A stretch of DNA of 64,000 bases from NCBI RefSeq assembly GCF_036880985.1, contig NZ_JBAJNO010000009.1, forward strand, positions 3,074,501 to 3,138,500. Reading direction: 5' to 3'. Both the position numbers and the translations under genes were made by a program. Below, piece after piece: positions 32,695 to 53,223 of this stretch; the stretch's first letter is position 1, and every line of letters starts with the position of its first letter. Below the pieces are notes generated by a model, which saw only the letters and a program-made list of their open reading frames with translations, was not told the DNA's origin and did no database searches. The stretch comes from Limibacter armeniacum (GTDB taxonomy: Bacteria > Bacteroidota > Bacteroidia > Cytophagales > Flammeovirgaceae).

Positions 32695-35600
32695 TTAATA
32701 TTCTGCCAGTTGTTTTTCTGAAGAAGGGTTAACTGCTTCTTCCTTGTTTCCACTGATTTTTTCCTGTAGCCACTGGAACATGATAAACAGTACAGGGATA
32801 ACAAACACACCCAGTAGCGTACCGATCAACATACCACCTGCTGCACCAGTACCGATCGAACGGTTACCAACAGCACCTACACCTGTGGCCATTGCCAAAG
32901 GCATCAGACCTAGGATAAAGGCAAAGGATGTCATCAGGATTGGACGCAGACGTGAAGTGGCTGCTTCCAGTGCTGAGTCTACTAGTGAAAGCCCCGCTTT
33001 TCGACGCTGTAGGGCAAACTCTACAATCAGGATGGCGTTCTTGGCCAATAGACCAACCAGCATGATCAGTGAAATCTGGAAGTAGATGTTGTTTTCCAGT
33101 CCCAGGAACTTGGTAGACAGGAATGCACCTGCAATACCTACCGGAAGTGACAGCAGTACTGACAATGGCAGTAGGTAGCTTTCGTATTGTGCCGCCAGCA
33201 GGAAGAATACGAACAGGATACTCAAACCAAAGATTAGAGGTGCTTCACCTGTTGAGTTAACCTCTTCACGAGTCAGACCTGAGTAGTCAATGTCATACCC
33301 TTTAGGAAGTACTTCCTTAGCTGTTTGCTCAATGATCTCAATCGCTTGGCTAGTACTGAAGCCTGGGTTCACCTGTCCGTTTACTGAAGCTGAGTTGTAC
33401 AGGTTGAAACGGTTTACTGATTGAGGTCCATATACCTTATTCAGTGAAACGAATGATGTAATTGGCGCCATTTCACCTTTTGGTGTGCGCACAAAGATAT
33501 TGTTTAGGTCATCCTTGCTGATACGGTCTTCAGGTGGAGCCTGAATGTATACACGGTACTGCTTACCAAAGCGGCTGAAGTCATTGACATAAGCACCACC
33601 CAAGTACATTTGCATGGTTGTCAAGATATCCCTTACTGCAAGTCCAGCTTCTTTTACTTTCGCTGTATTGACATCGATCATATACTGCGGGAAGTTGGTA
33701 TTGAATGAAGAAGAAGCATACATGATCTCAGGACGCTGCATCAGTGCACCAAGCAGTGTTTTGGTATTCTTGTCAAGGTCTGTAAAGCTACCGCCTGTAC
33801 GGTCCTGTACCTTGAACTCAAAACCACTGGCATTACCATAACCACGAATACTTGGTGGCGAGAAGAAAATCAACTTGGCATCAGGGAATTTGACTGAAAG
33901 ACCAAATAGTCTACCGATGACACTTTTTACGTCAGTACCTGGTGCTTTTCTTTCTTCCCAGTTTTTCAGCTTGATGATACCCAAACTGTAAGAGCTACCA
34001 GCCCCTGAAAGGATACTGTAACCTGTTACAAACGAACGGCTTTCGATTACGTCGCTCATTTTCGCCAGCTCTTGGTCCAGTTGGTTGATTGTCTTCTGAG
34101 TACGGTCCAAAGATGAACCAGCAGGTGTCTCGATATTGGCAAAGATATAACCTCTGTCTTCATCAGGGATAAAGCCTGCAGGAGTTGTTTCACTTGCCCA
34201 GAAAGTTACCGCTACAGATGCTACCAGAATCGCAATTGTAATCCACTTCTTCTTGCTCAGAAAACTCAACGCATTTTTATACTTGTTAGTCGTTACTTCA
34301 AATGCAGTATTGAATGCTGTATAGAAGCGTTGTAACCCACCTTTAGGGGCGTGATCCTTATCATGCGTTTTCAGCAACAGGGCACAAAGCGCAGGGCTAA
34401 GTGTAAGGGCGTTTACCGCAGAAATCAGGATTGCGATAATCAGGGTGATACCAAACTGTGTATAGAACACACCAGTAGGACCTTGCATAAATGTCACTGG
34501 AATAAATACCGCAGACATTACCAATGTGATGGAAATGATGGCACCACTGATCTCGCTCATGGCTGTCAATGTTGCAGACTTGGCATTATCATAGCCCTCA
34601 TCCAATTTGGCATGGACAGCTTCCACTACTACGATGGCGTCATCCACTACAATACCAATGGCTAGTACCAAGGCAAACAGTGTCAACAGGTTGATCGAGA
34701 ACCCGAATACATACAGGAAGAAGAATGTACCGATAATCGCCACTGGAACCGCAATAGCTGGAATCAATGTCGAACGGAAATCCTGAAGGAAGATAAACAC
34801 CACGATAAATACGAGGATAAATGCCTCAATCAGGGTGCTGATTACCTTACTGATGGATGCGTTCAAGAAGTCATTGGCATTTACGTTGATCTTGTATTTG
34901 ATGCCGTCAGGTAACGTAGACTCTGTTTCTTTCAGCTTAGCCTCAATAGTCTCAATAATTTCCTTGGCATTGGAACCTGGTGTCTGGAAGATACCAAGGT
35001 TAATACCTGGATAACCATCCGCAATGGTTGTTGTACTGTATGAAAGTGCTTCTAGCTCTACATCAGCTACATCACCCAAACGAAGGTATTGACCATTGTC
35101 AAATGTCTTGATAATAATGTCTCTGTACTCTTCTTCTGTCTTAAGTCTACCTTTGTAACGTAAGGTGTATTCAAATGCATGACCAGCATTCTGACCCAAT
35201 GCACCGGGAGCTGCTTCCAAACTTTGGTCGCTCAAGGCTGCACTTACATCAGCAGGTGTCAGGTTGTAGTTGGCAAGTTTCTCTGGTTTTACCCAAAGAC
35301 GCATCGTATAGTTCTTAGCGCCAAACAGACGTACCTCACCTACACCATAGATCCTTTGTAGTTCTGGAACTACGTTGATGTTCAGGTAGTTTTGGATGAA
35401 TTTCTCACCGTAGTCCTTGTTCTCAGAATAGAAAGCCAAGAACATCAGGGCACTGGTTTGCTGCTTCTGGGTGATTACACCTGTCTGCACTACTTCCTTA
35501 GGCAGCAAAGCGTTAGCTCTTGATACTCGGTTCTGTACGTTTACCGCTGCAATATCAGGGTCTATACCACCTTCAAAATATACCTGAATGGTAGCACTAC

Positions 35601-35856
35601 CATCGTTACTGGCAGTGGAAGTCATGTAAGTCATACCTTCCACACCGTTGATTTGCTCTTCAATAGGAACCACCACACTTTCAAGAATCGTCTGTGAGTT
35701 GGCACCTGGATAACTGGCTGTCACCTGAACGGTTGGAGGGGCAATGTCTGGATACTCCGTTACCGGAAGCAAGTACATCCCCAAGCCACCCAAAATCACG
35801 ATGATAATGGATACCACCGTAGACAGCACGGGTCTCTCTATAAATTTTTGTAACAT
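32695..35856 (-). CDS. RND multidrug efflux permease (HAE1/AcrB type)
   Basis: 1053 residues, full length. N-terminal FIERPVLSTVVSIIIVILGG, twelve membrane helices in two halves and two large periplasmic loops. The proton-relay Asp pair is present in IGIVVDDAIVVVEAVHA in helix 4, and the duplicated second half shows GLLAKNAILIVEFALQRRK. Conserved TEYPDIAPPTVQV at the start supports the hydrophobe/amphiphile efflux group. Works as the inner-membrane pump of a tripartite system with the adjacent adaptor and outer-membrane factor. Substrates likely include drugs, bile-like or metabolic amphiphiles; not determinable here. Confidence 0.95.
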   Translation of the reverse strand: MLQKFIERPVLSTVVSIIIVILGGLGMYLLPVTEYPDIAPPTVQVTASYPGANSQTILESVVVPIEEQINGVEGMTYMTSTASNDGSATIQVYFEGGIDPDIAAVNVQNRVSRANALLPKEVVQTGVITQKQQTSALMFLAFYSENKDYGEKFIQNYLNINVVPELQRIYGVGEVRLFGAKNYTMRLWVKPEKLANYNLTPADVSAALSDQSLEAAPGALGQNAGHAFEYTLRYKGRLKTEEEYRDIIIKTFDNGQYLRLGDVADVELEALSYSTTTIADGYPGINLGIFQTPGSNAKEIIETIEAKLKETESTLPDGIKYKINVNANDFLNASISKVISTLIEAFILVFIVVFIFLQDFRSTLIPAIAVPVAIIGTFFFLYVFGFSINLLTLFALVLAIGIVVDDAIVVVEAVHAKLDEGYDNAKSATLTAMSEISGAIISITLVMSAVFIPVTFMQGPTGVFYTQFGITLIIAILISAVNALTLSPALCALLLKTHDKDHAPKGGLQRFYTAFNTAFEVTTNKYKNALSFLSKKKWITIAILVASVAVTFWASETTPAGFIPDEDRGYIFANIETPAGSSLDRTQKTINQLDQELAKMSDVIESRSFVTGYSILSGAGSSYSLGIIKLKNWEERKAPGTDVKSVIGRLFGLSVKFPDAKLIFFSPPSIRGYGNASGFEFKVQDRTGGSFTDLDKNTKTLLGALMQRPEIMYASSSFNTNFPQYMIDVNTAKVKEAGLAVRDILTTMQMYLGGAYVNDFSRFGKQYRVYIQAPPEDRISKDDLNNIFVRTPKGEMAPITSFVSLNKVYGPQSVNRFNLYNSASVNGQVNPGFSTSQAIEIIEQTAKEVLPKGYDIDYSGLTREEVNSTGEAPLIFGLSILFVFFLLAAQYESYLLPLSVLLSLPVGIAGAFLSTKFLGLENNIYFQISLIMLVGLLAKNAILIVEFALQRRKAGLSLVDSALEAATSRLRPILMTSFAFILGLMPLAMATGVGAVGNRSIGTGAAGGMLIGTLLGVFVIPVLFIMFQWLQEKISGNKEEAVNPSSEKQLAEY

Positions 35857-35917
35857 GTTTCTAATTTTTCAGTAAGCTGGATGAAACCGTAGCTTAAAAA
35901 GTATTGACTAAACCGAA

Positions 35918-37090
35918 TCAGTTTTTGAATACAGGCTTGATGTTGTTTGAAACCTGATCAAATGGTACAGCCTGTGGTACAATGGATACATTAGACTTCA
36001 ACTTGCCTACACCTTCTGCCACAATCTTTTGTCCTGCTTCCAAGCCGGATTTAACCACTACAAGATTGTTTACCTCATCTGCTGGCTCAATGATAGTTCC
36101 CTTCACAGTATTGTCACTGTTGACAACATAGACATAAGTTTGACCTTGCATCTCATAAGTTGCCTGAGCAGGTACGACCACTGCATTTTTGTAAGTTTTA
36201 GGGATTCTGATCTGACCACTGCTACCACTTCTAAGAAGCTTTTCAGGGTTAGGGAATACTGCTCTAAAACTAATGGCACCTGTATTCGGGTTGATTTGTC
36301 CAGTTACTGTCTGGATTTTACCTGTATGAGAATAGGTACTTCCATCTGCTAGCATCAGTTCTACTGAAGGAATGTTCTTCAGCTTTTCATCCAATGATCC
36401 GCCTTCAGTATTTCTGGTGAATGCCAAAAACTCTTTTTCATTCATCGAGAAATAGGCATATACATTATCAATAGCTGAAACGGTAGTAAGCGGTTGAGTC
36501 TCTGTACGACCTACCAGTGTTCCTTGTCTGTAAGGAATTGTACCTACCACACCGTTTACAGGGCTTTTGATACGTGTATAGTCAATATTTTCAGAAACAC
36601 TTCTGTAGTTGCTTTGTGCTTGAGCCAATTGAGACTTGGCAGAAGCCAATTGCGCTTTGGCTGTTTCCAGTTGGACTTCACTGATAATACCTTCTTCTAC
36701 TAAAGGAACCAGTTTATCCACTTCAACCTGAGCTACATTCACTTGAGCTTTGGCTACCTCAATGGCTGATTTTGAGGCGTTAGCTTGTTGGCTAAGCGAT
36801 TGAGTTTCCAGTTTGAAAAGTGTCTGACCTTTTTTAACTGTTTGTCCTTCATCTACAAATATCTGTTGGATATATCCGTCGATTTTGGCTCTGATTTCAA
36901 TATTTTGAGTGCCTTCGATACTTACAGGGTAAGCATCAAAAGCTGTAATGTCTCGAGCTGGGGCTTCAGTTACTGGATAAGGCATAGCCTGCTGACCACC
37001 TGAAGGAGGAGCTTGGTTACTGGAGCAGCTGAAAAAGCTTGATGCAGCTCCTAGTACCAGAAGCGACATAGTAATACGCTTGATGTTCAT
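35918..37090 (-). CDS. RND periplasmic adaptor (membrane fusion protein)
   Basis: 390 residues. Lipoprotein signal (LLVLGAASSFFSCS, Cys22). Domain order: lipoyl half (IEIRAKIDGYIQQIFVDEG), helical hairpin with heptads (about 100-165, SKSAIEVAKAQVNVAQVEVD), second lipoyl half (YTRIKSPVNGVVGTIPYRQG), beta-barrel (NPNTGAISFRAVFPNPEKLL) and membrane-proximal domain. Links permease and outer-membrane factor. It lies between the regulator and the permease gene in the same operon. Confidence 0.93.
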   Translation of the reverse strand: MNIKRITMSLLVLGAASSFFSCSSNQAPPSGGQQAMPYPVTEAPARDITAFDAYPVSIEGTQNIEIRAKIDGYIQQIFVDEGQTVKKGQTLFKLETQSLSQQANASKSAIEVAKAQVNVAQVEVDKLVPLVEEGIISEVQLETAKAQLASAKSQLAQAQSNYRSVSENIDYTRIKSPVNGVVGTIPYRQGTLVGRTETQPLTTVSAIDNVYAYFSMNEKEFLAFTRNTEGGSLDEKLKNIPSVELMLADGSTYSHTGKIQTVTGQINPNTGAISFRAVFPNPEKLLRSGSSGQIRIPKTYKNAVVVPAQATYEMQGQTYVYVVNSDNTVKGTIIEPADEVNNLVVVKSGLEAGQKIVAEGVGKLKSNVSIVPQAVPFDQVSNNIKPVFKN

Positions 37091-37108
37091 AACTGTTTGT
37101 TAACTTTA

Positions 37109-37612
37109 TTAAGGTTTAGTTGAGATTGAATCCTTTATTCGTGAAAAAACTTGAATTGCTTCATTCAAAAATGAGGTATATGCTGTCATAAACTTACTAG
37201 AAGACTCTGAGTACTCTTCTGGCTTTACTTTCTGCATTGCCTCTTTATATTCAATAAGCTGGTTGTGTAATGCTGCTTCTTCTTTAAAATGTGCGATCAC
37301 CTCATTAATTCGGGAAATAAGTCTGTTTGGTGATATCACAAAGTATTTTTTTCGGTCACCTTCCTTTTGAAAGTAAGTAGCCATCTCAAGCTCTTCCAAT
37401 TGGTGAAGGCTAGTGCAGATTGAACTTTTACTAGCACCTAACGATTTGATTAGCTGATCGAAAGTGGTTCCTTTTCCTCCTTCAATAATTAAGAGTGCAG
37501 CCATGCGACCACTCAATGGTGGAAGTGGAACGGTTCTGCTTAAAAAGCAACCTAACTGCTCAATTAACTTTTCTTTCTGCTCTTCTAATGTTCTTAAGTC
37601 TGTCATATCCAT
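37109..37612 (-). CDS. GbsR/MarR-type regulator of the efflux operon
   Basis: 167 residues. Winged helix-turn-helix of the GbsR branch of MarR proteins: LSGRMAALLIIEGGKGTTFD, then IKSLGASKSSICTSLHQLEE and the wing YFQKEGDRKKYFVISP, followed by a long dimerisation helix. It is the first gene of the operon (regulator, adaptor, permease, outer-membrane factor), 18 bases before the adaptor gene. A 24-bp palindrome 26 bases upstream of its start is the evident operator, so the protein probably represses its own operon and is released by an efflux substrate. Confidence 0.9.
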   Translation of the reverse strand: MDMTDLRTLEEQKEKLIEQLGCFLSRTVPLPPLSGRMAALLIIEGGKGTTFDQLIKSLGASKSSICTSLHQLEELEMATYFQKEGDRKKYFVISPNRLISRINEVIAHFKEEAALHNQLIEYKEAMQKVKPEEYSESSSKFMTAYTSFLNEAIQVFSRIKDSISTKP

Positions 37613-37922: not shown

Positions 37923-39935
37923 TTAGAAGCCTACTGAAAGACTTAAAGAAATATTCCTTCCCGGTCGGTAGATACCACCCCAATCAAGGTGCGTACGGTA
38001 GTAGGTGTCTAGCAAATTCTCGGCGGCGGCATTGACTTGCCAATGCGCGTTTTGCCATTGCCACTGGTAGCCGACTCTTAAGTTAAGGGTATGGTAGCTA
38101 TCAGTTGCCTGTTCTCCAAATGCTTCACTTACCCGTTCCTGCTGGGCTGACCATTCCAATTCACCTTGTGTGTAGAACTTATTGTATTGGTAACGGAGTG
38201 CCGTTACCCACCTCAGTGGAAGCATCATTGGTAAAGGGTCTCCTTCACTGGTTTCTCCACGGGTGTACTGTAAAGTATTGACCGATTGCCAATGTTCATT
38301 GAATGTGACGTTGGCTTCTGCATTGATCCCTGCCATATAGGCATTCGGTACATTGATAAAACGTTTCACGCCTTTGGCTCCAACAGTCATGCGCATTAGG
38401 TTCGGGTCTACTTCTCCCATGATATAGTCAGTGAGGTAATGGTAGAAGATGTTTCCTTTCAGCATTAAAATACCTTTATGGAATTGTGTGCCTGCTGTAA
38501 ACTGCCATGCCTTTTCATTTTCAATATCAGGGTTGCCGATGTAGTCGTAACCATCAAAGCGGTTGTAGAGATAGAAGCCATAAAGTTCTGTCACCGTCGG
38601 AAGCCTTGTGGTGTAGGCAGTCGTGAAATGAAGTTGCCAGTGGTTGCTTAGGTCGTAATCGAACCTGAGTGTAGGAGCTGCCAATATTCTTTTGTCTGCT
38701 TCAGTGATGCTGTAGTTCAACGTCTCGAACTGTTGCCTGCCAAACTCTGAGGTCATGTCTGTAGAAGCTGCATCTGTCCTTAGGCTTAACGTTGACATCC
38801 ATCTTTTTCCCCAGTTGCTTTTCCACTGTACAAAAAGACCTGCAGCATTTCTTTTGGCATCTGGCCATGTCAGCATAAACATGGGCACACCTCCTTCATT
38901 GGGCGGATACATGGTCATCTCTGCCCTTACCTTATTTTGGTAAGCCTCAGCTTTGACAGTCAGGCTGTGTTGTTTCCATCGCCACATGCCTTCCGTCATC
39001 ATGCCGTAAGTATCGCTCCATCCGGGCATGTCCATCCTGATTGGAACGTCAGGACGTTTGGAGTCATCCATGATGTGGGTGATATTGTTGCCATACACTT
39101 TAGCCTTGAAGTGATGGAAGTGTTCGGTGATCGCCATCTGCTCAAAGCCTATCCCGTAGATGCGGGCTTGTGCCTTGCTGACATCCATGGTCAGGGCAGG
39201 GTAGCCGACATCCCATGCGTCGTCGGTGACAAGTGACAAAGTGAGTTTTCTTTGATTACCTAAATCATAAAGGGCATGCAAGGCATGGTTCATCTTGCTG
39301 AACTGCGAGTAGAGTACCTCATTGCCGTTGCCATCTGTGTAGTTGCCGTGGTCACGATAGGTGCCCGAATAGCGGACGCCCAATTTTTTTCCAGAATAGT
39401 TGATGGCTCCCGTCATGTCCATACCATTGGAAACAGAGCAGTAACCTGTTGAAAGGTTTGCAGCCCACTGTTTTTCCTGATTGGTTTTAGCCTGCTTCAA
39501 TAACATGTTAAGGCTTCCGCCAATGTTGGCGCCCTGCTTGTTTCCTTCCGCACCTGTACTGATCTCCAATGAATGCATGTTGCTCGTCTCTACATAAGAA
39601 GTGACGGGGTCCATGCGGTCAGTGCAGGCACCGAATATCTTCATGTCATCGATGGTGATATTGAGCTGCCCTGCCGAATAGCCATTGATCATCGGCTCCA
39701 AGGCGTAGTTGCCTCTTTTGATCAGTGCCACTTCACTGGTGCGGTTCAGGATCTGTTCCACAGAAGCCAGCTGGCTGTACTGATAAAAATTTAAGGCATT
39801 CTGTCCATAAGGGTCTGCAATCACTACCTCTTTCAGTTGAATGGTCTTGAGCGTATCGGGAAGAGGGGCGTGCTGTGCAGAGACAAAGGAGACAACCAAA
39901 GACAGCAGGACTGACAGTTGTAATGTCTTTATCAT
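37923..39935 (-). CDS. TonB-dependent outer-membrane receptor, possible copper uptake
   Basis: 670 residues. Signal peptide (LQLSVLLSLVVSFVSAQ), then the plug (LKTIQLKEVVIADPYGQNA, NGYSAGQLNITIDDMKIFGA, GANIGGSLNMLLKQ) and a barrel ending in ISLSLSVGF. There is no N-terminal regulatory domain. The barrel is conspicuously rich in Met and His (DSKRPDVPIRMDMPGW, MTMYPPNEGGVPMFML). Directly upstream on the same strand are a Met/His-rich YtkA-like lipoprotein and a small Cys-rich membrane protein, which together point to a soft-metal substrate, most likely copper. Substrate is inference; the receptor class is sure. Confidence 0.85.
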   Translation of the reverse strand: MIKTLQLSVLLSLVVSFVSAQHAPLPDTLKTIQLKEVVIADPYGQNALNFYQYSQLASVEQILNRTSEVALIKRGNYALEPMINGYSAGQLNITIDDMKIFGACTDRMDPVTSYVETSNMHSLEISTGAEGNKQGANIGGSLNMLLKQAKTNQEKQWAANLSTGYCSVSNGMDMTGAINYSGKKLGVRYSGTYRDHGNYTDGNGNEVLYSQFSKMNHALHALYDLGNQRKLTLSLVTDDAWDVGYPALTMDVSKAQARIYGIGFEQMAITEHFHHFKAKVYGNNITHIMDDSKRPDVPIRMDMPGWSDTYGMMTEGMWRWKQHSLTVKAEAYQNKVRAEMTMYPPNEGGVPMFMLTWPDAKRNAAGLFVQWKSNWGKRWMSTLSLRTDAASTDMTSEFGRQQFETLNYSITEADKRILAAPTLRFDYDLSNHWQLHFTTAYTTRLPTVTELYGFYLYNRFDGYDYIGNPDIENEKAWQFTAGTQFHKGILMLKGNIFYHYLTDYIMGEVDPNLMRMTVGAKGVKRFINVPNAYMAGINAEANVTFNEHWQSVNTLQYTRGETSEGDPLPMMLPLRWVTALRYQYNKFYTQGELEWSAQQERVSEAFGEQATDSYHTLNLRVGYQWQWQNAHWQVNAAAENLLDTYYRTHLDWGGIYRPGRNISLSLSVGF

Positions 39936-40108: not shown

Positions 40109-41014
40109 TTAAAACTCAAGGTAGAAAGAGGCATCTGTTGCGTCTTCAGCCATGCTGTTCAGCAATACTTTTTCTCCGTCCATTACTTTTAGTTTTAATT
40201 CCCAGTCACCTGTCATGTTGAAGTTCACGGTGCCTTTGTAGTGACCGTCGCCCAATGCAATAGGGTTAACGTTGTTGGAAGAGCCATGTCCCATTGAAGG
40301 CATCCAAGGTTGGAATTCTACTGTCAGGTCATTGACAGGCATAAAACCGTTGTGCTCCATCTCCATACCTTCCATTGTGTCCATCGGCATCATCTTGTGT
40401 ACCGTGATCACGATCTCGTTTGAACCCACCATTGGCTTGTCTTCCACAAAGTAGTAGGCAACAAAATATCTAGTGCCGTCAACTTCCTTTCTGATGATCG
40501 TCTGATACTGGGCATTGTCCTGTCCAGAAGCATAAGTCAGGTTCTTGTCAGATACCGTAATAGGCAGCATGATCTCATCTGTCATGTCATTGGCAGACAC
40601 CGTTACATGCAAAGTCCATACACCTGTCTCTCCTGTGCTTGGCATAATGAAGTTGATGCCACCCTTGAAGAAGCCTTCTTCCATCAGTGTCGGTTGGTCA
40701 ACAGGAGCAGCGTGCGAGTGAGTCATTTCACCCATCACCATATCCATCATCGGCATTAGCTTTACTTCAGCATTGGTCACCTGATTGCCGTCTGCATCAG
40801 TTAGCTCAGCAAAAAACTTGTTGTATCCTGCAAAAAGGTCTGCCTCACCTGACCGTAAATTCAAGGTCAATCCTGTGTTGCTCAACGTTTGCTCAGTCAT
40901 TTGGTGGTAGCTAGCCAACGGTGACTCCTGAGGGGTTGCCTCGTCATTGTTGTCACAAGATGAAAGGATAAAAAGTGTTGCGATGATGGAGATAAAGAGA
41001 TTCAGCTTTTTCAT
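40109..41014 (-). CDS. YtkA/FixH-like Met/His-rich lipoprotein, probable copper binding
   Basis: 301 residues from the ATG at 41014, which opens a lipoprotein signal (LNLFISIIATLFILSSCD, Cys20); a longer upstream frame is not credible. The mature part has two YtkA-like immunoglobulin-type domains (NLRSGEADLFAGYNKFFAEL; VEFQPWMPSMGHGSSNN; HYKGTVNFNMTGDWELKLKV). Methionine-histidine clusters stand out: LMPMMDMVMGEMTHSHAAP, MMPMDTMEGMEMEHNGFMP, and WMPSMGHG. Such clusters bind Cu(I)/Cu(II) in CopC-like and YtkA-like proteins. It is followed by a TonB-dependent receptor and preceded by a Cys-rich membrane protein. Confidence 0.8.
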   Translation of the reverse strand: MKKLNLFISIIATLFILSSCDNNDEATPQESPLASYHQMTEQTLSNTGLTLNLRSGEADLFAGYNKFFAELTDADGNQVTNAEVKLMPMMDMVMGEMTHSHAAPVDQPTLMEEGFFKGGINFIMPSTGETGVWTLHVTVSANDMTDEIMLPITVSDKNLTYASGQDNAQYQTIIRKEVDGTRYFVAYYFVEDKPMVGSNEIVITVHKMMPMDTMEGMEMEHNGFMPVNDLTVEFQPWMPSMGHGSSNNVNPIALGDGHYKGTVNFNMTGDWELKLKVMDGEKVLLNSMAEDATDASFYLEF

Positions 41015-41273
41015 TCTAATTTTTTTTAAAAATAAGGTCATGTAAATGTCAGGTAGGGGCGGATGGACTCCTTTAGTTTGTGGTACAGGAAAGTTGACAT
41101 TGGAAATGAAAGACGTCTTGAGACGTACCTTTCCCAATGCACAGACAGAACCTGTCGTGCACAAACGGAGAACCGTTATATCCGACCATACAGAAAAGGG
41201 ATTGCACAATGTGTCAACCCGAAAAAGAATAAAAGACAAAAGGAACTCTTGCCTTTGTTAGAGAGAAATGACC

Positions 41274-41657
41274 TTAACAGGGTGGGTGAAAGATGTTGTG
41301 GGTGTAGAAGTCAAATAACTTCTGCGTGTAAGGGGTGGTGTGTTTGATAGCCAATAATGGCAGCACTGTTTTTTCCTGTGCTGCTACCTGTGTCATTTCT
41401 TGAATTAAGTAAACAACGGTGGAGATTGGCTTCTCCGCTTTCTTTTTCTGTTCAGAAGAAGTCTGTTCCACTTCTTTCATCAGGTGACATTGACCGTTAC
41501 AGTGAAGCTCAGGTTTGTCCTTGTTGATACAGAAGTATTCCGTGATGAAATCTTTGCGGAGTTCGTAGTCGAGGTAATACAAAGGTATAGCCAAGGTGTT
41601 CAGCAACAGAAGTGCTGAAAGCATCAAAAGACTATATTTTGTATAGCACTGCTTCAA
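41274..41657 (-). CDS. Small Cys-rich membrane protein, 127 residues
   Basis: Starts with TTG at 41657 (MKQCYTKYS) or ATG at 41624; the longer form gives positive residues before the hydrophobic helix LLMLSALLLLNTLAIPLYYL and is slightly preferred. After the helix comes the motif YFCINKDKPELHCNGQCHLM, with three Cys and two His that look metal-binding, then a basic linker and a C-terminal hydrophobic piece ending NIFHPPC. Proteins with this FC..HCNGxCHL pattern occur beside TonB receptors and copper genes in Bacteroidota (recollection, function unknown). First gene of the minus-strand group; a good promoter lies upstream. Confidence 0.7.
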   Translation of the reverse strand: MKQCYTKYSLLMLSALLLLNTLAIPLYYLDYELRKDFITEYFCINKDKPELHCNGQCHLMKEVEQTSSEQKKKAEKPISTVVYLIQEMTQVAAQEKTVLPLLAIKHTTPYTQKLFDFYTHNIFHPPC

Positions 41658-43604: not shown

Positions 43605-45181
43605 GGGTAGGGTGTCCAAAGGCATAAAAAAAACTCTTGCCATTTTTGTGTTGAACTGAAAATAAAATTTTCGCACAAAATACGGAAAGAGTTTATGTCG
43701 GTAAACATACAGCAAAAACAGCTACAGGACAAGTTTAATCACCGTTACACGGTTAAGAAGTTACGCGGAAGGGTCTGTGCACTGGAAAAAAGCAGAGGGA
43801 GTTGGAAGGGGAAATATCAGAATAGCCAACAGTTGCTCAAGGCATTGGAAAGAGAGAACAAGCAGTTGCGGCAACAGCTGTCATCTGTAGGTCCTCCAGC
43901 TGAGCACTCGCTCCCCATAGCTGGACATAAGTACAATGTCTTGATGGTGAGTATCTGTATACACCTCTATGTAGTGGGCGGCTGCAGCTTTCGGGGTGTG
44001 GTTTCTTGTCTGCAATATTTGAATAGTGCACTGGGCTGGCACTTGACCAGCCTTCCAAGCAAGAGCGCAGTCGAGACTTGGGTCAAGAAGCTGGGGTATT
44101 TTTCTTTCAATCAAGGAGAAGGCCGTTTTACCGACAAGGAGTATGCCCTGATTGTGGATGAATGCATGACCATTGGTGATGAACGGATGCTGATGGTACT
44201 GGGCGTGGAGGCAGAAAATACCACAGCAGAGGTACTTACGACCGCTGATGCGGATGTACTTCACATAGAAGTACAGAAATCTTGGAAGGCTGACCAGATC
44301 AAGCGTGTGCTGAAGGAGGTGGCCCAGACACAAGGCGAGGCACCTAAGTACGTCATCAGCGACTCGAACAACAATTTGGTCGCAGGTATCAAGGCTGCGG
44401 AACTTTGCCGAGTCAAGGATGTTGGTCACCAGCTGGCGCTACTGGCAGAAAGGTGCTACAAGAAAGATGATCGATATATCGCCTTCATGAAGTCGTTGGG
44501 AGCCTGCACCCACAAAAACATTATGAAGCCTGTGGCTTACCTATTGCCGCCAAGGCAGCGTGACCACTCCCGCTTCCTAAATCTGACGCCCACTATCGAT
44601 TGGGTGTTGGCGATACAAAAAAAATATTCCACCCTAACCCGGGAAGAACAGGAATGCTTTGCCTTCCTGCAGGAACATAACGAGATTGTCAAGGAGTTGG
44701 AAACACTTGTTGTTATCACCTGCAAGATCAACAAACACCTTAAGAACAGTGGATTATCCACCGAAAGCATTGATGTGTGCCTCTCGTACTGTGAGACAGT
44801 AACACCTTATGAGAAACTGAATAAATTCATAGAAACTGTGAAAACATACCTGAAGGAAGAGGTCTCGAAACTGGAAGAGCAGGCCTGCTGGCATTGCTCT
44901 TCTGATGTTATTGAGTCTTTATTCGGCATCTTCAAGTACAGGAAGTCTCCCAATAAGCTGTATGGTGTCACCTCCTATGTGCTCTACCTGGCACTGGTAA
45001 CAAGAAAACTTGCTGGCAAGGTGGTATTGGATATCGATATCAAGAGCGCTCAGGAACAGGTTTTTCTGTCCAAAATCAAGGAGTGGGAGGTTAATTACCT
45101 AAAAGAAAATCAAGTACTTAAACGTATGAAAGCACTCTCAAATTGACCGGAAGAAAATCTAATGTTTTGGACATCCTACCC
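43605..45181 (+). mobile_element. Insertion sequence, 1577 bp, with terminal inverted repeats
   Basis: Ends GGGTAGGGTGTCCAAA (43605-43620) and TTTGGACATCCTACCC (45166-45181) are inverted repeats with one mismatch in 16. The flanking TTC on each side (43602-43604 and 45182-45184) looks like a 3-bp target duplication. One transposase gene fills the element. The insertion interrupts a REP-like palindrome that would otherwise read CCCCTTCGGG. Confidence 0.75.
43695..45146 (+). CDS. Transposase of an unclassified DDE-type IS
   Basis: 483 residues, intact. A coiled coil occupies the N-terminus (VKKLRGRVCALEKS, LLKALERENKQLRQQL). The presumed catalytic triad: Asp in YALIVDECMTIGDERML (about residue 153), Asp in KYVISDSNNNLVAGIKA (about 217) and Glu in SSDVIESLFGIFKYR (about 413). 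The target choice and end structure support an active or recently active element. I could not assign it to an IS family with certainty. Confidence 0.75.
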   Translation: MSVNIQQKQLQDKFNHRYTVKKLRGRVCALEKSRGSWKGKYQNSQQLLKALERENKQLRQQLSSVGPPAEHSLPIAGHKYNVLMVSICIHLYVVGGCSFRGVVSCLQYLNSALGWHLTSLPSKSAVETWVKKLGYFSFNQGEGRFTDKEYALIVDECMTIGDERMLMVLGVEAENTTAEVLTTADADVLHIEVQKSWKADQIKRVLKEVAQTQGEAPKYVISDSNNNLVAGIKAAELCRVKDVGHQLALLAERCYKKDDRYIAFMKSLGACTHKNIMKPVAYLLPPRQRDHSRFLNLTPTIDWVLAIQKKYSTLTREEQECFAFLQEHNEIVKELETLVVITCKINKHLKNSGLSTESIDVCLSYCETVTPYEKLNKFIETVKTYLKEEVSKLEEQACWHCSSDVIESLFGIFKYRKSPNKLYGVTSYVLYLALVTRKLAGKVVLDIDIKSAQEQVFLSKIKEWEVNYLKENQVLKRMKALSN

Positions 45182-46216: not shown

Positions 46217-47350
46217 ATGAACACTCGCTTCACTGTACTGACTCGGCAACTCCCTTTTATATTGAGTATCCTTCTGATATATGGCTGCAAAGATACGCCT
46301 TCACCTATAAGTGAACCTTCCAACAAGCCTTTATCCCTTGAGCTTCCTCCTCAATTTGGGAATGGTTATGTCTTGCCCGAGAACAATCCACTTACTGTAA
46401 AGGGAGTGGAACTGGGGCGTAAGCTTTTCTATGACAAAAGGCTTTCGGGAGACAACACCCAATCCTGTGCGAGCTGTCACCAACAGCAGTTTGGTTTTGC
46501 TTCCAATATGGTGGCTGATAAAGGAATTACAGGGGAAACAACAGGCATGAATACCATGGCGCTTTCCAATTTGATCTGGCAAAAGAAGTTTTTCTGGAAT
46601 GGCAGGGTCAATACATTGGAGCAACAGGCATTGGCACCTATTGAAAACCCTTTGGAGATGCATCAGGATTTGGATGAACTAGTGGAAGAGCTGGAAGCGG
46701 ATGAAGTATATGTCAAGCTCTTTGAACTGGCATTTGACTCGGCAGGCATTACGGCAATTAGGATAGCCGAAGCCTTGTCACAGTTTGAGCGGACACTGAT
46801 CTCGGCAGACAGTAAGTATGACCGTTATCTGGAAGGAACTTATGAGCCAACCGATATGGAGTTGAAAGGGATGGAATTATTTTTCACGCATCCAATTCCC
46901 GATCAGGGATTGAGAGGGGGCAACTGCGGTGACTGCCATTTGGGTCCCTTGGTCGATGGAGACCAGTTAGGCTTTCAGGGTTTTCACAACAATGGATTGG
47001 ATTCGGATGAAAACCTGAAGGACGGATTGGCTGCCGTTACAGAAAAAGCAACGGATAAAGGCAAATTTAAAGCGCCTTCTCTACGGAATATAGCATTGAC
47101 GGCTCCCTATATGCATGATGGCAGGTTTAATACATTGGAAGAAGTGGTGGAGCATTATGATGAACACATTATAAAGAGTGAAACATTGGACCCGCTGATA
47201 TTGGAGGCGAGTAATGAGAAGCTGTTTCCTGATGACCCGATCAAACTTTACCTGACCGATGAAGAGAAGCAGGCTATCGTTGCTTTCTTGCATATGCTGA
47301 CGGACGATACTTTTGTTACCAACCCTGATTTTGCAGACCCAAATCAATAA
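46217..47350 (+). CDS. Di-haem cytochrome c peroxidase/MauG-type lipoprotein
   Basis: 377 residues. Lipoprotein signal (QLPFILSILLIYGCKD). Two c-type haem motifs: CASCH at residue about 88 (TQSCASCHQQQFGFA) and CGDCH at about 236 (GGNCGDCHLGP), with LGRKLFYDKRLSGDN before the first and YMHDGRFNTLEEVVEHY near the end, the usual layout of cytochrome c peroxidase/MauG proteins. Such enzymes reduce peroxide or oxidise protein side chains in the periplasm. The next gene, encoding an MbnP-like protein, starts 4 bases after its stop, so it is the first of an operon with a second di-haem gene. Confidence 0.9.
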   Translation: MNTRFTVLTRQLPFILSILLIYGCKDTPSPISEPSNKPLSLELPPQFGNGYVLPENNPLTVKGVELGRKLFYDKRLSGDNTQSCASCHQQQFGFASNMVADKGITGETTGMNTMALSNLIWQKKFFWNGRVNTLEQQALAPIENPLEMHQDLDELVEELEADEVYVKLFELAFDSAGITAIRIAEALSQFERTLISADSKYDRYLEGTYEPTDMELKGMELFFTHPIPDQGLRGGNCGDCHLGPLVDGDQLGFQGFHNNGLDSDENLKDGLAAVTEKATDKGKFKAPSLRNIALTAPYMHDGRFNTLEEVVEHYDEHIIKSETLDPLILEASNEKLFPDDPIKLYLTDEEKQAIVAFLHMLTDDTFVTNPDFADPNQ

Positions 47351-47354
47351 AGCC

Positions 47355-48119
47355 ATGAAAATCCTGAATGTGATATGCCTTGCCAGCCTACTATTGTTGT
47401 TGGGCTGCGATAAAGAAAATGAGGCGACCAAAAATGTACAGCTTTCCATACAGCTGGAGTTGCTGATGGACGGGGCACCATTGGTACTGGAAGAGCAGCA
47501 TTATACCAATGCATTGGGAGAAACGTTCGAGGTGAGCGACTTCCGCTTTTACCTGACCAATATTTCCCTGCAAGGCGAATCGTCTGATGCGGCATTCAGC
47601 GAGTCGGAAAGTTATCACCTGATTGCACACGATGGCATGAGCAACGAAGCATCGTTTACAGTCTCGGGTATTCCATCCAAACAGTACGATACCATTACGT
47701 TTGCGGTTGGTGTAGATCCTGACCGCAACTATTCCATTGACAACACAGGAGACCTTGACCCAAACAATGCGATGGCATGGAACTGGAATACGGGTTACAA
47801 GTTTGTCTTGCTCGAAGGAAAGTATTACCCCGATGGAGGTGAGGCAAGAGGATTGGCTTACCATATCGGTGGTGATGACAACTATAGGGTCGTGACCTTG
47901 CCAGCTGCGATGGACTTGTCAAAAGGAGACGGCACGCTAAAGCTAAAGGTAAATGTGGACAAGATATTTGGAGACAAGGCAGAGCAGTCGTTGCCGGAAG
48001 CATCAAGAAAAACCACCTTTATCACTTTGGAACGCAATGGTCCGGAAGATACCATGTTTGGTCCCTACACACAGTTGATTGCTAACAATTACGCCCAGAT
48101 GTTTGAAGTGGTTCAGTAG
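47355..48119 (+). CDS. MbnP-like lipoprotein, probable copper-binding partner of a di-haem enzyme
   Basis: 254 residues from the ATG at 47355, 4 bases after the preceding gene. Lipoprotein signal (ILNVICLASLLLLLGCDK). The mature part has the MbnP pattern: EVSDFRFYLTNISL, IPSKQYDTITFAVGVDPDRN, a DLDPNNAMAWNWNTGYKF segment and LEGKYY. In characterised MbnP proteins the partner di-haem enzyme MbnH converts a conserved Trp to kynurenine, which enables copper binding; the two Trp in MAWNWN are the candidates here. It is sandwiched between two di-haem enzyme genes in one operon. Confidence 0.8.
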   Translation: MKILNVICLASLLLLLGCDKENEATKNVQLSIQLELLMDGAPLVLEEQHYTNALGETFEVSDFRFYLTNISLQGESSDAAFSESESYHLIAHDGMSNEASFTVSGIPSKQYDTITFAVGVDPDRNYSIDNTGDLDPNNAMAWNWNTGYKFVLLEGKYYPDGGEARGLAYHIGGDDNYRVVTLPAAMDLSKGDGTLKLKVNVDKIFGDKAEQSLPEASRKTTFITLERNGPEDTMFGPYTQLIANNYAQMFEVVQ

Positions 48120-48173
48120 AGGATTTTATAGGGCGACCACATTGAGTCGCCCCACAGTTATATTGAAAAAGGA

Positions 48174-49151
48174 ATGGGAAACACAAACTTCCTTAGTGTG
48201 CTAGTCTGTCTGATAATCGGGTTGTGGTCATGTACTGCGACACCCGAGTTGTCGCCACCTGCACCTGAAAGAAATCCTACCACTTCGGCAGGCATTGCGT
48301 TGGGAAAGCAATTATTTTTTGATCCGTTGCTTTCTGCAAACCGCAAAGTGTCCTGCGCCACCTGTCACCAACCAGACAAAGCCTTTACGGACGGCGTATC
48401 CCTATCAACCGCAGGTGTAACAGGAAACCAATTGTTACGCCATGCGCCGACACTGATGTATATAGGCTGGTCAGAAAAATTATTCTGGGATGGCGGTGCC
48501 AATGATTTGGAGTCACAGGCATTTGGGCCACTGACCCATCACGATGAGATGGGCATTGACCTGAAAGAACTAACCAAAAGGTTGAATGAGGACGCAGGTT
48601 ACCGCCAGCAGTTCCAAGACTTGTTTGGAATAGATTCCGTACAGAGTGCTTATGTAGCCAGAGCATTGGCACAGTACCAACGTTCGCTCTATCTTTTCAG
48701 CAGCCAGTATGATGCAGTGAAGAAAGGAAAGGCTGCTTTTTCGGAAGAGGAACTGAGAGGGGAAAAAGTTTTTATCCGCCATTGTGAGCGCTGCCATCGG
48801 CTTCCGTTGTTTACGGACTTCCGTTACCACAACAATGGTTTGGACACCTTATATAGTAGTGCACATGAAGGAATGGCACAAGGTCGTTACCGCATCACGC
48901 TGGACAGTGCAGATATGGGCAGGTACAAGACACCAACCCTAAGGAACATTACACTGACTGCTCCGTATATGCATGACGGTCGGTTTGCAACCTTGGACGA
49001 TGTGCTGGAATTTTATCAGCAAGGAATTAATCAGACTGTTTATCTTGATACTTTATTGTTGATGTCCAAGAAAGAGGAACGCTTCTCTGATGAGGAGCAG
49101 CAAGCCCTAAAAGTTTTTCTTCAAACCTTAACGGATGACTTCACCGAATAA
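48174..49151 (+). CDS. Di-haem MauG-family enzyme, MbnH-like lipoprotein
   Basis: 325 residues. Lipoprotein signal (LSVLVCLIIGLWSCTA). Haem motifs CATCH (VSCATCHQPDKAF, residue about 62) and CERCH (RHCERCHRLPLFTD, about 206), and the C-terminal TAPYMHDGRFATLDDVLEFY. It directly follows the MbnP-like gene, the standard MbnP-MbnH arrangement, so it is the best candidate for the enzyme that modifies the MbnP-like protein. It is shorter than the paralogue at 46217, with which it shares order of motifs; division of labour between the two is unknown. Confidence 0.85.
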   Translation: MGNTNFLSVLVCLIIGLWSCTATPELSPPAPERNPTTSAGIALGKQLFFDPLLSANRKVSCATCHQPDKAFTDGVSLSTAGVTGNQLLRHAPTLMYIGWSEKLFWDGGANDLESQAFGPLTHHDEMGIDLKELTKRLNEDAGYRQQFQDLFGIDSVQSAYVARALAQYQRSLYLFSSQYDAVKKGKAAFSEEELRGEKVFIRHCERCHRLPLFTDFRYHNNGLDTLYSSAHEGMAQGRYRITLDSADMGRYKTPTLRNITLTAPYMHDGRFATLDDVLEFYQQGINQTVYLDTLLLMSKKEERFSDEEQQALKVFLQTLTDDFTE

Positions 49152-49186
49152 AAGAACATAACGAACTAACTTTAATCTCGATTTTT

Positions 49187-49978
49187 ATGAAATGGCTTTT
49201 CAGGCTTGCCCTGTTTTTTATACTGACTGTACTGACGCAAGTTGGCGGCATGATCTACCTGATCACTTTATCCTTGATAAGACCCAAGTCACAAAGAAGC
49301 ATCAAACGTCTAGGTACATTCGTGTTGCTTTATGCGGTGAGTAACTTATGGCTTGTCCCCCAATTGGCAAGGTTGGCAGGACGTGAACCTGTCGCAAAGC
49401 ATACCCATCTGGAAGCCGCTTCCTTTGTGACAAACCTTTGTTTCAGGAATTATGTCAGGCCCCAGCTCAATGAGGTATTGGCAGCAACTGCTGATAAGGT
49501 GGCGCAACAATACCCAGTCATTAAAGTCCATTACCTTGATGCCAACTTTCCTTTCCTTAATGGTTTTCCATTGATCCCGCATTTAAGCCACAATGATGGC
49601 AAGAAGGTCGATCTTTCTTTTATTTATCAGGATGCAGACGGAAAGCTGGTCAATGAAGTGCCGACCGTCACGGGTTATGGCGTGTTTGAAGCACCGAAAG
49701 AAAATGAGAAGGATACAGCAAAGGAATGTGAGCAGTCAGGGTATTGGCAATACAGTTATGCTCGCTACCTGACAATGGGAACAACGCATTCGCAGTTGAG
49801 CATGAATGTAAAGGCTACCCGTTACTTGCTTCAAAGTCTGCTCTTATCTGAGGAAGTGGGAAAAGTTTTTCTTGAACCACATCTTGTCAAGCGAACAGCT
49901 GTGCAGGATGCCCGCATCAGGTTTCACGGATGCCATGCCGTCAGACATGATGACCATATTCACTTACAGTTGAGATGA
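49187..49978 (+). CDS. Membrane-anchored protein with LAS-type metallopeptidase motifs
   Basis: 263 residues. Two N-terminal membrane segments (about 4-27 and 42-57, LALFFILTVLTQVGGMIYLI, LGTFVLLYAVSNLWLVPQLA). The outer domain contains LSHNDGKKVDLSFIY, matching the HxxGxxxD zinc motif of LAS peptidases (MepA, D-Ala-D-Ala carboxypeptidases), and near the end RHDDHIHLQL, matching HxDHxH. The remaining zinc ligand is compatible. It may trim peptidoglycan, or act on another peptide substrate. Located 35 bases after the MbnH-like gene, so perhaps in the same operon. Assignment rests on motifs alone. Confidence 0.55.
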   Translation: MKWLFRLALFFILTVLTQVGGMIYLITLSLIRPKSQRSIKRLGTFVLLYAVSNLWLVPQLARLAGREPVAKHTHLEAASFVTNLCFRNYVRPQLNEVLAATADKVAQQYPVIKVHYLDANFPFLNGFPLIPHLSHNDGKKVDLSFIYQDADGKLVNEVPTVTGYGVFEAPKENEKDTAKECEQSGYWQYSYARYLTMGTTHSQLSMNVKATRYLLQSLLLSEEVGKVFLEPHLVKRTAVQDARIRFHGCHAVRHDDHIHLQLR

Positions 49979-52341: not shown

Positions 52342-53223
52342 ATGAAATACACACTGCTTTTGAGTTTGCTATTGGTTTGCAGTACGCTTCTCGGTCAGAG
52401 CAAGTTTACAACCGATCCTGATGCTGCTCAGCTCGTGACCAGTGATATCGATAATTTCTGGAAAGCTTTTAACCTGTTGGGAGGTGGCTATCCGAGAAAC
52501 CCTTTTGGTGACAAATACCTTGAGATAGGTAGCCAAGGGCTTAAGGATTTTATTCCCCATCGTATTCAGCATGCCGATACATTATTGCAACGAGTAAGGG
52601 ACAACAAGGAAAAGTATCTCGGGTTGAGGGACAATACTTATCGAATCAAGGAAACAGAGAAGCAGATCAGGTCAACATTTTATGCGTTCAAGTATTGGTA
52701 CCCTGAAGCGCAGTTTCCGCCTGTATATTTTGTAATCGGTGTGTTTAACTCTGGAGGGACAGCCACCGAAAATGGATTGATTATCGGAGCGGAGATGCAA
52801 AGCCGCATTGAAGATGTGCCATACATTGTGGCACATGAGCTGATTCACTTTCAGCAAAAATATGACAATGAAAATCCTACGCTGCTAGAGCAAGCAATAA
52901 AGGAAGGTAGTGCAGATTTTTTGGGTGAGTTGATCTCGGGAAAACATATCAATCAAACAGCCTTTGCTTATGGAGAAGCCCATAAGGAAGCATTGGAAAA
53001 AGAGTTTCAGGAAAAAATGAATGGAATGGATTACAATGGTTGGCTTTATGGAGGCTATGAAAAGGATGACCGCCCGAATGACCTTGGCTACTGGGTGGGC
53101 TATCAGATTACCAAGGCATATTTTGATAAGCAACCTGACAAGCACAAGGCGGTGAAAGATATTTTAAACATCAGTGATTATGAGTCTTTTCTAAAGGCGA
53201 GCAAACATTTCGATCAGAAATAA
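52342..53223 (+). CDS. Secreted DUF2268-like zinc metalloprotease
   Basis: 293 residues. Sec signal peptide (YTLLLSLLLVCSTLLGQ). The zinc site is VAHELIHFQQ (HExxH) at about residue 158 with a downstream EGSADFLGE that supplies the third ligand, the gluzincin pattern of DUF2268 proteins; GYWVGYQITKAYFDK closes the domain. The family is related to the gliding-associated GldB fold, but this gene lacks other gliding genes nearby. Own terminator downstream. Confidence 0.8.
   Translation: MKYTLLLSLLLVCSTLLGQSKFTTDPDAAQLVTSDIDNFWKAFNLLGGGYPRNPFGDKYLEIGSQGLKDFIPHRIQHADTLLQRVRDNKEKYLGLRDNTYRIKETEKQIRSTFYAFKYWYPEAQFPPVYFVIGVFNSGGTATENGLIIGAEMQSRIEDVPYIVAHELIHFQQKYDNENPTLLEQAIKEGSADFLGELISGKHINQTAFAYGEAHKEALEKEFQEKMNGMDYNGWLYGGYEKDDRPNDLGYWVGYQITKAYFDKQPDKHKAVKDILNISDYESFLKASKHFDQK

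Follow-up and report, generated by a model that had tools for sequence, protein, structure and literature searches.

The window analysed here, a stretch of 64,000 nucleotides from Limibacter armeniacum (contig NZ_JBAJNO010000009.1, positions 3,074,501 to 3,138,500, forward strand), carries at positions 46217 to 49151 a tight operon in which the gene for an MbnP-type lipoprotein (P) is flanked by genes for two different MbnH/MauG-like di-haem c-type enzymes (H1 upstream and H2 downstream). In our overall reading, to which we assign a probability of about 0.65, P would hold a kynurenine-containing Cu(I) site made by H1, H2 would have been retained for the same P, and the three genes would form a copper-acquisition set together with genes located upstream of them. 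The reading builds on families, predicted fold, conserved residues, gene order and tree grouping; kynurenine formation, copper binding, the direction of copper flow, the surface location of P and the division of labour between the two enzymes are put forward below as predictions from these.

An MbnP gene between two di-haem enzyme genes

H1 (46217–47350, plus strand, 377 aa, stop codon at 47348–47350) is followed at a distance of 4 bases by P (47355–48119, plus strand, 254 aa), itself located 54 bases ahead of H2 (48174–49151, plus strand, 325 aa). A pattern search revealed a lipobox in all three products (LLIYGC in H1, LLLLLGC followed by DKENE in P, and GLWSC in H2), and the enzymes, like P, are predicted lipoproteins. 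P accounts for the only match to PF20243 in the whole 8.04 Mb genome (nine contigs), in which PF03150 is matched seven times, H1 and H2 included. Coordinates and family matches thus bear out a claim made earlier in a sequence-only reading of the window, namely that an MbnP-like protein sits in a tight operon between two di-haem enzymes, with 4 bases between the first two genes. Given one PF20243 gene and seven PF03150 genes in a genome of this size, a PF03150 gene on either side of the PF20243 gene, both on its strand and each no more than 1.5 kb away, would be expected about 42 x (1500/16.08 Mb)^2 times, or about 4e-7, and the H1-P-H2 arrangement is therefore not attributable to chance.

Assignment of P to the MbnP family

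P matched PF20243 with an E-value of 6.7e-43 and 147.2 bits, well above the gathering cut-off of 27. Since its sequence match to the MbnP structure 7L6G was weak (E 0.43 with the single sequence and 0.008 with a profile), a fold prediction was needed. The AlphaFold2 model of P, built from 52 aligned sequences, reached a mean pLDDT of 92.1, and a Foldseek search with this model placed six 7L6G chains on top (1.6e-8 to 4.4e-8), the next match following at 1.1e-2. VIA-align likewise superimposed the model on 7L6G with a Z-score of 16.1 over 205 residues (rmsd 3.4), the next entry scoring 5.7. Neither MopE nor CorA was among the listed fold matches; as no direct comparison with them was made, this does not count as evidence against kinship. 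No relative of P was found on plasmids by tblastn at E 0.001.

Conserved residues were counted in 248 distinct, dereplicated Bacteroidota MbnPs and in five reference MbnPs, which are annotated proteins from plasmid records, two of them encoded beside methanobactin genes. As the sequence-only reading had noticed, P has two Trp in the stretch MAWNWN; they are residues 142 and 144 and the only Trp of the protein. This WxW motif (M140-A-W142-N-W144, positions 47772–47786, plus strand) contains the candidate kynurenine site, W142, which is found in 246 of the 248 Bacteroidota proteins, along with W144 in 236 and M140 in 220; both Trp are present in all five references and M140 in four. The candidate copper ligand H170 (47862–47864, plus strand) is His in 236/248 Bacteroidota MbnPs and in 5/5 references. 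A further candidate ligand, M234 (48054–48056, plus strand), aligns with a Met in 5/5 references, the Bacteroidota proteins showing Met in 159 and His in 45 of the 248. In MbnP, according to Manesis et al. 2021, kynurenine reportedly forms from the first Trp of the WxW, and a His and a Met are said to bind Cu(I). On its profile match, predicted fold and conserved residues, P is an MbnP.

Some relatives deviate from this pattern. Nine MbnPs have kept the WxW and carry Glu in place of H170, with M140 and M234 lost, pointing to a metal site that is changed or missing (L094, L121, L130, L133, L135, L185, L274, L278). In the P-P or P-P-H loci L288–L290, L292–L294 and L302, mostly from Saprospiraceae, the first MbnP retains W142 and shows Ala, Gly, Thr or Ser at the second Trp and an acidic residue at the M140 position. 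Finally, the MbnPs of L080, L089, L090, L230, L232, L234 and L235 have no adjoining di-haem gene in the fetched stretch, several of them with an intact WxW; their enzyme may lie elsewhere.

An acidic stretch after the lipobox directs Bacteroidota lipoproteins to the cell surface. In the loci with an enzyme gene on either side of one or two MbnP genes (described below; sets not dereplicated), a lipobox was present in 61/61 MbnPs, 51/55 H1 and 43/47 H2 enzymes, and the mean number of acidic residues at +2 to +7 was 3.2 for the MbnPs, 2.2 for H1 and 1.8 for H2. P is predicted to be membrane-anchored and perhaps surface-facing, a placement that, given its acidic lipoprotein start, would match the surface location of CorA.

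H1 and H2 are of the MauG/MbnH type

Both enzymes matched PF03150 (2.3e-57 for H1 and 5.4e-53 for H2), each with two CxxCH haem motifs, and the closest match of both in the PDB was 6E1C (9.2e-52 and 3.6e-46), an entry named 'di-heme enzyme' which we take to be MbnH. On the MauG model TIGR03791 they scored 152.5 and 172.6 bits, short of the cut-off of 443.85. Residues W127, P141, E147 and Y314 of H1 align with MauG W93, P107, E113 and Y294, and the same W, P, E and Y are present in H2. The two haem motifs and these four residues, including the axial Tyr, were found in 43/43 H1 rows, 40/40 H2 rows and 5/5 MbnH references after dereplication. The Tyr at the MauG 294 position sets such enzymes apart from the classical His-Met di-haem peroxidases, in which the axial residue is Met; since it is Tyr in both H1 and H2, their assignment as ordinary di-haem cytochrome c peroxidases was rejected. 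In the five other PF03150 proteins of the genome the same position is Tyr in three, Met in one and Lys in one. By family, haem motifs and residues, H1 and H2 are of the MauG/MbnH type, and the MbnP/MbnH-like assignment of the sequence-only reading stands for the enzymes as it does for P.

The two enzymes differ in other positions. Ahead of the second haem motif, H1 rows share a T-H-P (40, 43 and 43 of 43) and an R-G (42 and 43 of 43), and N333 is present in 41/43 of them; all these columns are gaps in 40/40 H2 rows. M114 is invariant in H1 (43/43), whereas 39/40 H2 rows have Pro. The equivalent of MauG Q103, position 137 of H1, is Gln in both enzymes of the window and Leu in 34/40 H2 rows. The plasmid records of L308, L309 and L310 give the name 'methanobactin export MATE transporter MbnM' to MbnH-type di-haem proteins, an apparent naming slip.

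The two-enzyme layout recurs in Cytophagales

PF20243 was matched in 30 of 38 relatives; in the phylum 101 of 392 sampled genomes had a match, and in the order 117 of 156, the window genome being included each time. Around a part of the MbnP matches listed, 160 stretches (40 + 120) were fetched and their genes written as strings of di-haem enzymes (H) and MbnPs (P). Seven of 161 loci were left unparsed at first by an ORF-overlap filter; all were re-inspected and none was H-P-H. The parsed loci of this set come from 123 genomes, the window's included, 87 of them in the order and 36 outside. A second, named set comprised the best 80 of 129 loci retrieved with one peptide pattern, and is biased to relatives of the window P; 79 of the 80 were parsed, of which 17 repeat an MbnP of the fetched set.

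The commonest string was P-H (103 of 158 MbnP-bearing strings of the fetched stretches), accompanied by a small Cys protein, c, in 54 of 100 such loci and by an outer-membrane protein of one family in 46 of 100. Two-enzyme loci, H-P-H or H-P-P-H, were found in 10 of the 87 order genomes with a parsed locus (six family groups), in one of the 36 outside the order (L208), and in 37 of the 79 parsed named loci, among them loci of Algoriphagus, Echinicola, Pontibacter, Rufibacter, Adhaeribacter, Marivirga and Flexithrix, all Cytophagales as far as looked up. The additional enzyme that the sequence-only reading had pointed out is thus a recurrent feature and not peculiar to the window. At the level of the locus itself, H2 is the sole enzyme adjoining P in Flammeovirga, and H1 the sole one in L076, L162 and L269. 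The order H1-Pa-c-Pb-H2 is found in L079, L081, L085 and L180, so that each enzyme there adjoins an MbnP of its own.

A three-row profile of the outer-membrane protein common after H had no match in this genome, which is weak evidence of absence. Of the long ORFs near MbnP genes that were considered as receptors, the Flexithrix-type one proved to encode YfhO and one of Flammeovirga FUSC.

Grouping of H1 and H2 in trees

In a quick tree of 209 di-haem enzyme rows, H1 falls in a branch (support 95) of 46 rows, 45 of which are upstream enzymes (that of L147, lying downstream, is the exception), and H2 in another (support 99), of whose 56 rows 52 are downstream enzymes. The other four rows of the H2 branch are two first enzymes of H-H-P loci, one enzyme upstream of P-P-P (L094) and one between two MbnP genes (L133). 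The H2 branch stands beside the phylum-wide enzymes of P-H loci (78 rows, support 100), and the upstream enzyme of L208, the H-P-H locus outside the order, lies outside the H1 group. A more careful, unrooted tree of 45 chosen rows separated H2 and the ordinary P-H enzymes from H1 and the MbnH references with support of 100/99. As judged from these trees, the two enzymes are members of different groups.

In a tree of the MbnPs, 29 of 31 dereplicated single MbnPs of H-P-H loci, the window P included, shared one branch (support 82), to which 6 of 9 first MbnPs and 1 of 9 second MbnPs of H-P-P-H loci also belong. Outside this Pa branch were the first MbnPs of L085, L180 and L285, the single MbnP of L077 (grouping with second MbnPs) and that of L208 (elsewhere). 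Nearest to the window P were the MbnPs of Flammeovirga-type loci. Taken together, the H1-Pa-c-Pb-H2 loci, the loci with H2 or H1 only and the MbnP branch suggest a probable loss of Pb together with its spacer and retention of H2, a direction that we infer, the trees being unrooted. In some lineages one of the two enzymes, be it H1 or H2, may be enough. The idea that H2 acts on another MbnP encoded elsewhere was rejected, the genome holding no further PF20243 match.

Putative copper genes upstream of the operon and other neighbours

Between 4.6 and 8.3 kb upstream of H1, on the opposite strand, lies a cluster of three genes whose link to the operon is proposed here. A small protein with the motif CxN...C...C (41274–41657, minus strand) belongs to family c (3.8e-24 with the profile of this family). 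It is followed by a Met-rich protein with a YtkA domain (40109–41239, minus strand; PF13115, 1.2e-15), the ORF of which begins with TTG, the real start being probably an internal ATG before a lipobox, and by a TonB-dependent receptor like OprC (37923–39935, minus strand). The receptor carries CTDRM (CxxxM, residue 104) and HIM (HxM, residue 287), the counterparts of the two OprC motifs with a role in copper handling, and both aligned with those of OprC 6fok (1.7e-21). At E 0.001 its PDB matches comprised six distinct sequences, every one of them OprC, and its top NCBIfam model was TIGR01778 TonB-copper (1.2e-46; 159.7 bits, under the cut-off of 472.45). Related gene sets stand on one strand in two other genomes, as c-YtkA-receptor-P-H in L221 (genome G303, distant, of the same class) and as P-H-YtkA-receptor in L223 (genome G218, of the same phylum), the latter stretch being without c. 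The link of the OprC cluster to the H1-P-H2 operon is suggestive, not proven; with an OprC-like receptor nearby, a copper role of the H1-P-H2 set is likely.

Family c yielded 125 matches among the ORFs of the 241 loci of both sets and sits upstream of many MbnP genes. Its members are about 130 aa long, with an N-terminal hydrophobic stretch and the pattern CxN...P...C...CxLxK; they are found beside two TonB-type receptors in this genome, and a further copy occurs in L315 (5675–6082, minus strand). The four proteins scanned gave no Pfam match above cut-off. A protein annotated as DUF2946 beside the MbnP of Ideonella was considered as a member and showed no similarity.

Among the other neighbours, RND efflux genes and a weakly MarR-like ORF (32695–37612, minus strand) adjoin the OprC-like receptor, and a 483-aa ORF between the receptor cluster and H1 (43695–45146, plus strand) has a sub-threshold likeness to IS6 transposase. 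Downstream, 35 bases after H2, lies an ORF of 263 aa (49187–49978, plus strand) that the sequence-only reading had described as metallopeptidase-like and as following the operon. It gave no Pfam or NCBIfam match at E 0.01 and none in the PDB at E 1 (no search for active-site motifs was made), so that neither this label nor any other family assignment could be upheld. With no relative among the other 240 fetched loci, it lies outside the conserved locus and was ruled out as a member of the system. A match to GldB-type gliding lipoprotein (PF25594) was found at 52342–53223 (plus strand).

Proposed mechanism

P would be an MbnP that is anchored in the membrane, perhaps at the cell surface, and binds Cu(I). 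A MauG-type di-haem enzyme, drawing oxidising power from peroxide via a bis-Fe(IV) state, would convert W142 of the WxW to kynurenine, which would complete a Cu(I) site together with H170 and a Met (M234 or M140). This conversion would most likely be the work of H1. H2 is kin to the ordinary MbnP partner of Bacteroidota, and some relatives have it next to a second MbnP (Pb), which has no counterpart here. In the window it has probably been retained for action on the same P, and it may do likewise in Flammeovirga, whose P has no other adjoining enzyme. H1-P-H2 would constitute a copper-acquisition set with the three products of the upstream cluster (OprC-like receptor, YtkA protein and small Cys protein).

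A number of observations weigh against this scheme. On the TIGR04052 equivalog model P scored 51.8 bits, below the cut-off of 140, compared to 264.4 bits for a methanobactin-linked MbnP. Both enzymes fell under the TIGR04039 (MbnH) cut-off of 362.85 (267.5 bits for H1 and 211.6 for H2, compared to 485.5 for a methanobactin-linked MbnH) and are for this reason called MbnH-like and not certified MbnH. P has no Cys beyond that of its lipobox, where the references have six each besides the signal or lipobox Cys; the sequence-only reading had staked its assignment on the Trp and metal ligands surviving alignment to true MbnPs, and what survived are the Trp, His and Met listed above, not these six Cys. 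In the quick tree the MbnH references joined Saprospiraceae enzymes and not H1, and in the careful tree H1 formed one clade in 16% of the bootstrap trees, a grouping that was not rejected either (p 0.396). A single clade of H1 and H2 narrowly escaped rejection in the AU test (p 0.084), a value that is not decisive alone; a recent tandem duplication of one enzyme was rejected on the grounds that H1 and H2 fall in different groups that mostly keep their own positions. As for the receptor, its cluster in the window is on the other strand and 4.6 kb from H1, with three ORFs in between, and OprC-like receptors were seen in 3 of 241 loci, the window included, most stretches reaching only 4–7 kb from the MbnP and so often missing a window-like layout.

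The presence of two enzymes around one P lends itself to other explanations. H1 and H2 might perform different chemistry on P, each on one Trp of the WxW or in successive steps such as hydroxylation and ring opening, and the copper site would then be doubly modified or under finer control. Such a division would suit a P whose only two Trp both lie in the WxW in a genome with no other PF20243 protein, the near-invariant T-H-P, R-G and N333 of H1 opposite gaps in H2 and its M114 opposite Pro, and the occurrence of both enzymes together in loci of Flexithrix, Algoriphagus, Echinicola, Pontibacter, Rufibacter and Marivirga. However, W144 is kept equally well with one adjoining enzyme (118 of 119 P-H loci) and with two (37 of 37 H-P-H loci; sets not dereplicated), a single MbnH is reportedly enough in Methylosinus trichosporium, and at the locus only H2 adjoins P in Flammeovirga and only H1 in L076, L162 and L269; we consider different chemistry improbable. 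The boldest version, in which two old, non-equivalent MauG-type enzymes would carry out two distinct oxidations on the same WxW to yield a doubly modified Cu(I) site served by OprC-type import in Cytophagales, is a speculation on which we would place little weight. Nor do we readily believe that one of the enzymes, most likely H2, is a peroxidase or electron-transfer partner removing or delivering oxidant in place of modifying P. The superfamily also includes peroxidases and five more PF03150 matches lie elsewhere in the genome, but both H1 and H2 have the axial Tyr and H2 is all that adjoins P in Flammeovirga; the Tyr being shared with three of the five other PF03150 proteins, it is by itself no proof of a modifying role.

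The function of the set as a whole can also be read differently. Copper tolerance or storage at the cell surface, in place of acquisition, is unlikely but a contender, for the direction of copper movement is not fixed by sequence and RND efflux genes with no substrate assigned lie at 32695–37090; against it, the OprC-like receptor carries copper motifs, and CorA, related in kind, is copper-repressed and proposed for acquisition (PMC3912023). That P no longer binds copper and uses the MbnP fold for some other function seems very improbable: Cys are missing from P, and the nine of 248 relatives with Glu at H170, no M140 or M234 and an intact WxW indicate that ligands can change, but the window P retains W142, W144, H170, M140 and M234. 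The predicted kynurenine Cu(I) site made by H1, with H2 retained for the same P, is the reading that we prefer.

Comparison with known systems and significance

The window locus resembles MbnP/MbnH of M. trichosporium OB3b (7L6G, 6E1C) in the predicted fold of P, the WxW, the His and Met positions, the Tyr-bearing di-haem partner and the adjoining genes. It differs in that MbnB (TIGR04159) was not found in the genome at E 0.01 (MbnA and MbnC were not searched for), in the absence of the six Cys, in enzymes scoring below TIGR04039 and in having two enzymes per MbnP; moreover, H1 lies upstream of P, whereas MbnH follows MbnP in all five reference pairs. With MauG of methylamine dehydrogenase, H1 and H2 share the counterparts of W93, P107, E113 and Y294, the substrate and product being different. 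The ordinary P-H loci of Bacteroidota, in which c often precedes P and an outer-membrane protein often comes after H, have in common with the window an MbnP, the enzyme group nearest to H2 and the c family. They possess a single enzyme, located downstream; in the window c stands at a distance of 4.6 kb and H2 is not followed by an outer-membrane protein. The receptor aligns with OprC including CxxxM and HxM, but is under the TIGR01778 cut-off.

The sequence-only reading had also stressed the lack of methanobactin genes. The lack of MbnB agrees with this, but it is not remarkable, as MopE and CorA are kynurenine copper proteins without a methanobactin operon (PMC3912023, PMC3621798); a kynurenine copper system without methanobactin is thus already known. 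MbnP is described there as having no marked sequence similarity to MopE or CorA, and CorA as a cell-surface protein (PMC3912023). The MopE/SACCP and CorA/CorB systems of methanotrophs are like the window locus in their kynurenine copper site (predicted here), di-haem partner gene and lack of a methanobactin operon; they have one di-haem partner, compared to two here, and the CorA site consists of two His, a water and the kynurenine. In the open-licence literature searched, we found no account of an MbnP regularly flanked in Cytophagales by two MbnH-like enzymes that differ from each other, nor of an association of this layout with an OprC-like receptor.

The one-strand sets of OprC-like receptor, MbnP and enzyme in two other genomes tie MbnP to copper uptake in a manner that is suggestive, not proven. 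The loci with H1 only, H2 only, both enzymes, and both enzymes with two MbnPs constitute a natural comparison set, through which the role of each di-haem enzyme is open to experiment in genera that are in culture, for example Algoriphagus, Pontibacter and Flammeovirga. The finding places a probable kynurenine copper site in a large order beyond the methanotrophs, where each target has two different enzymes as candidates for its modification.

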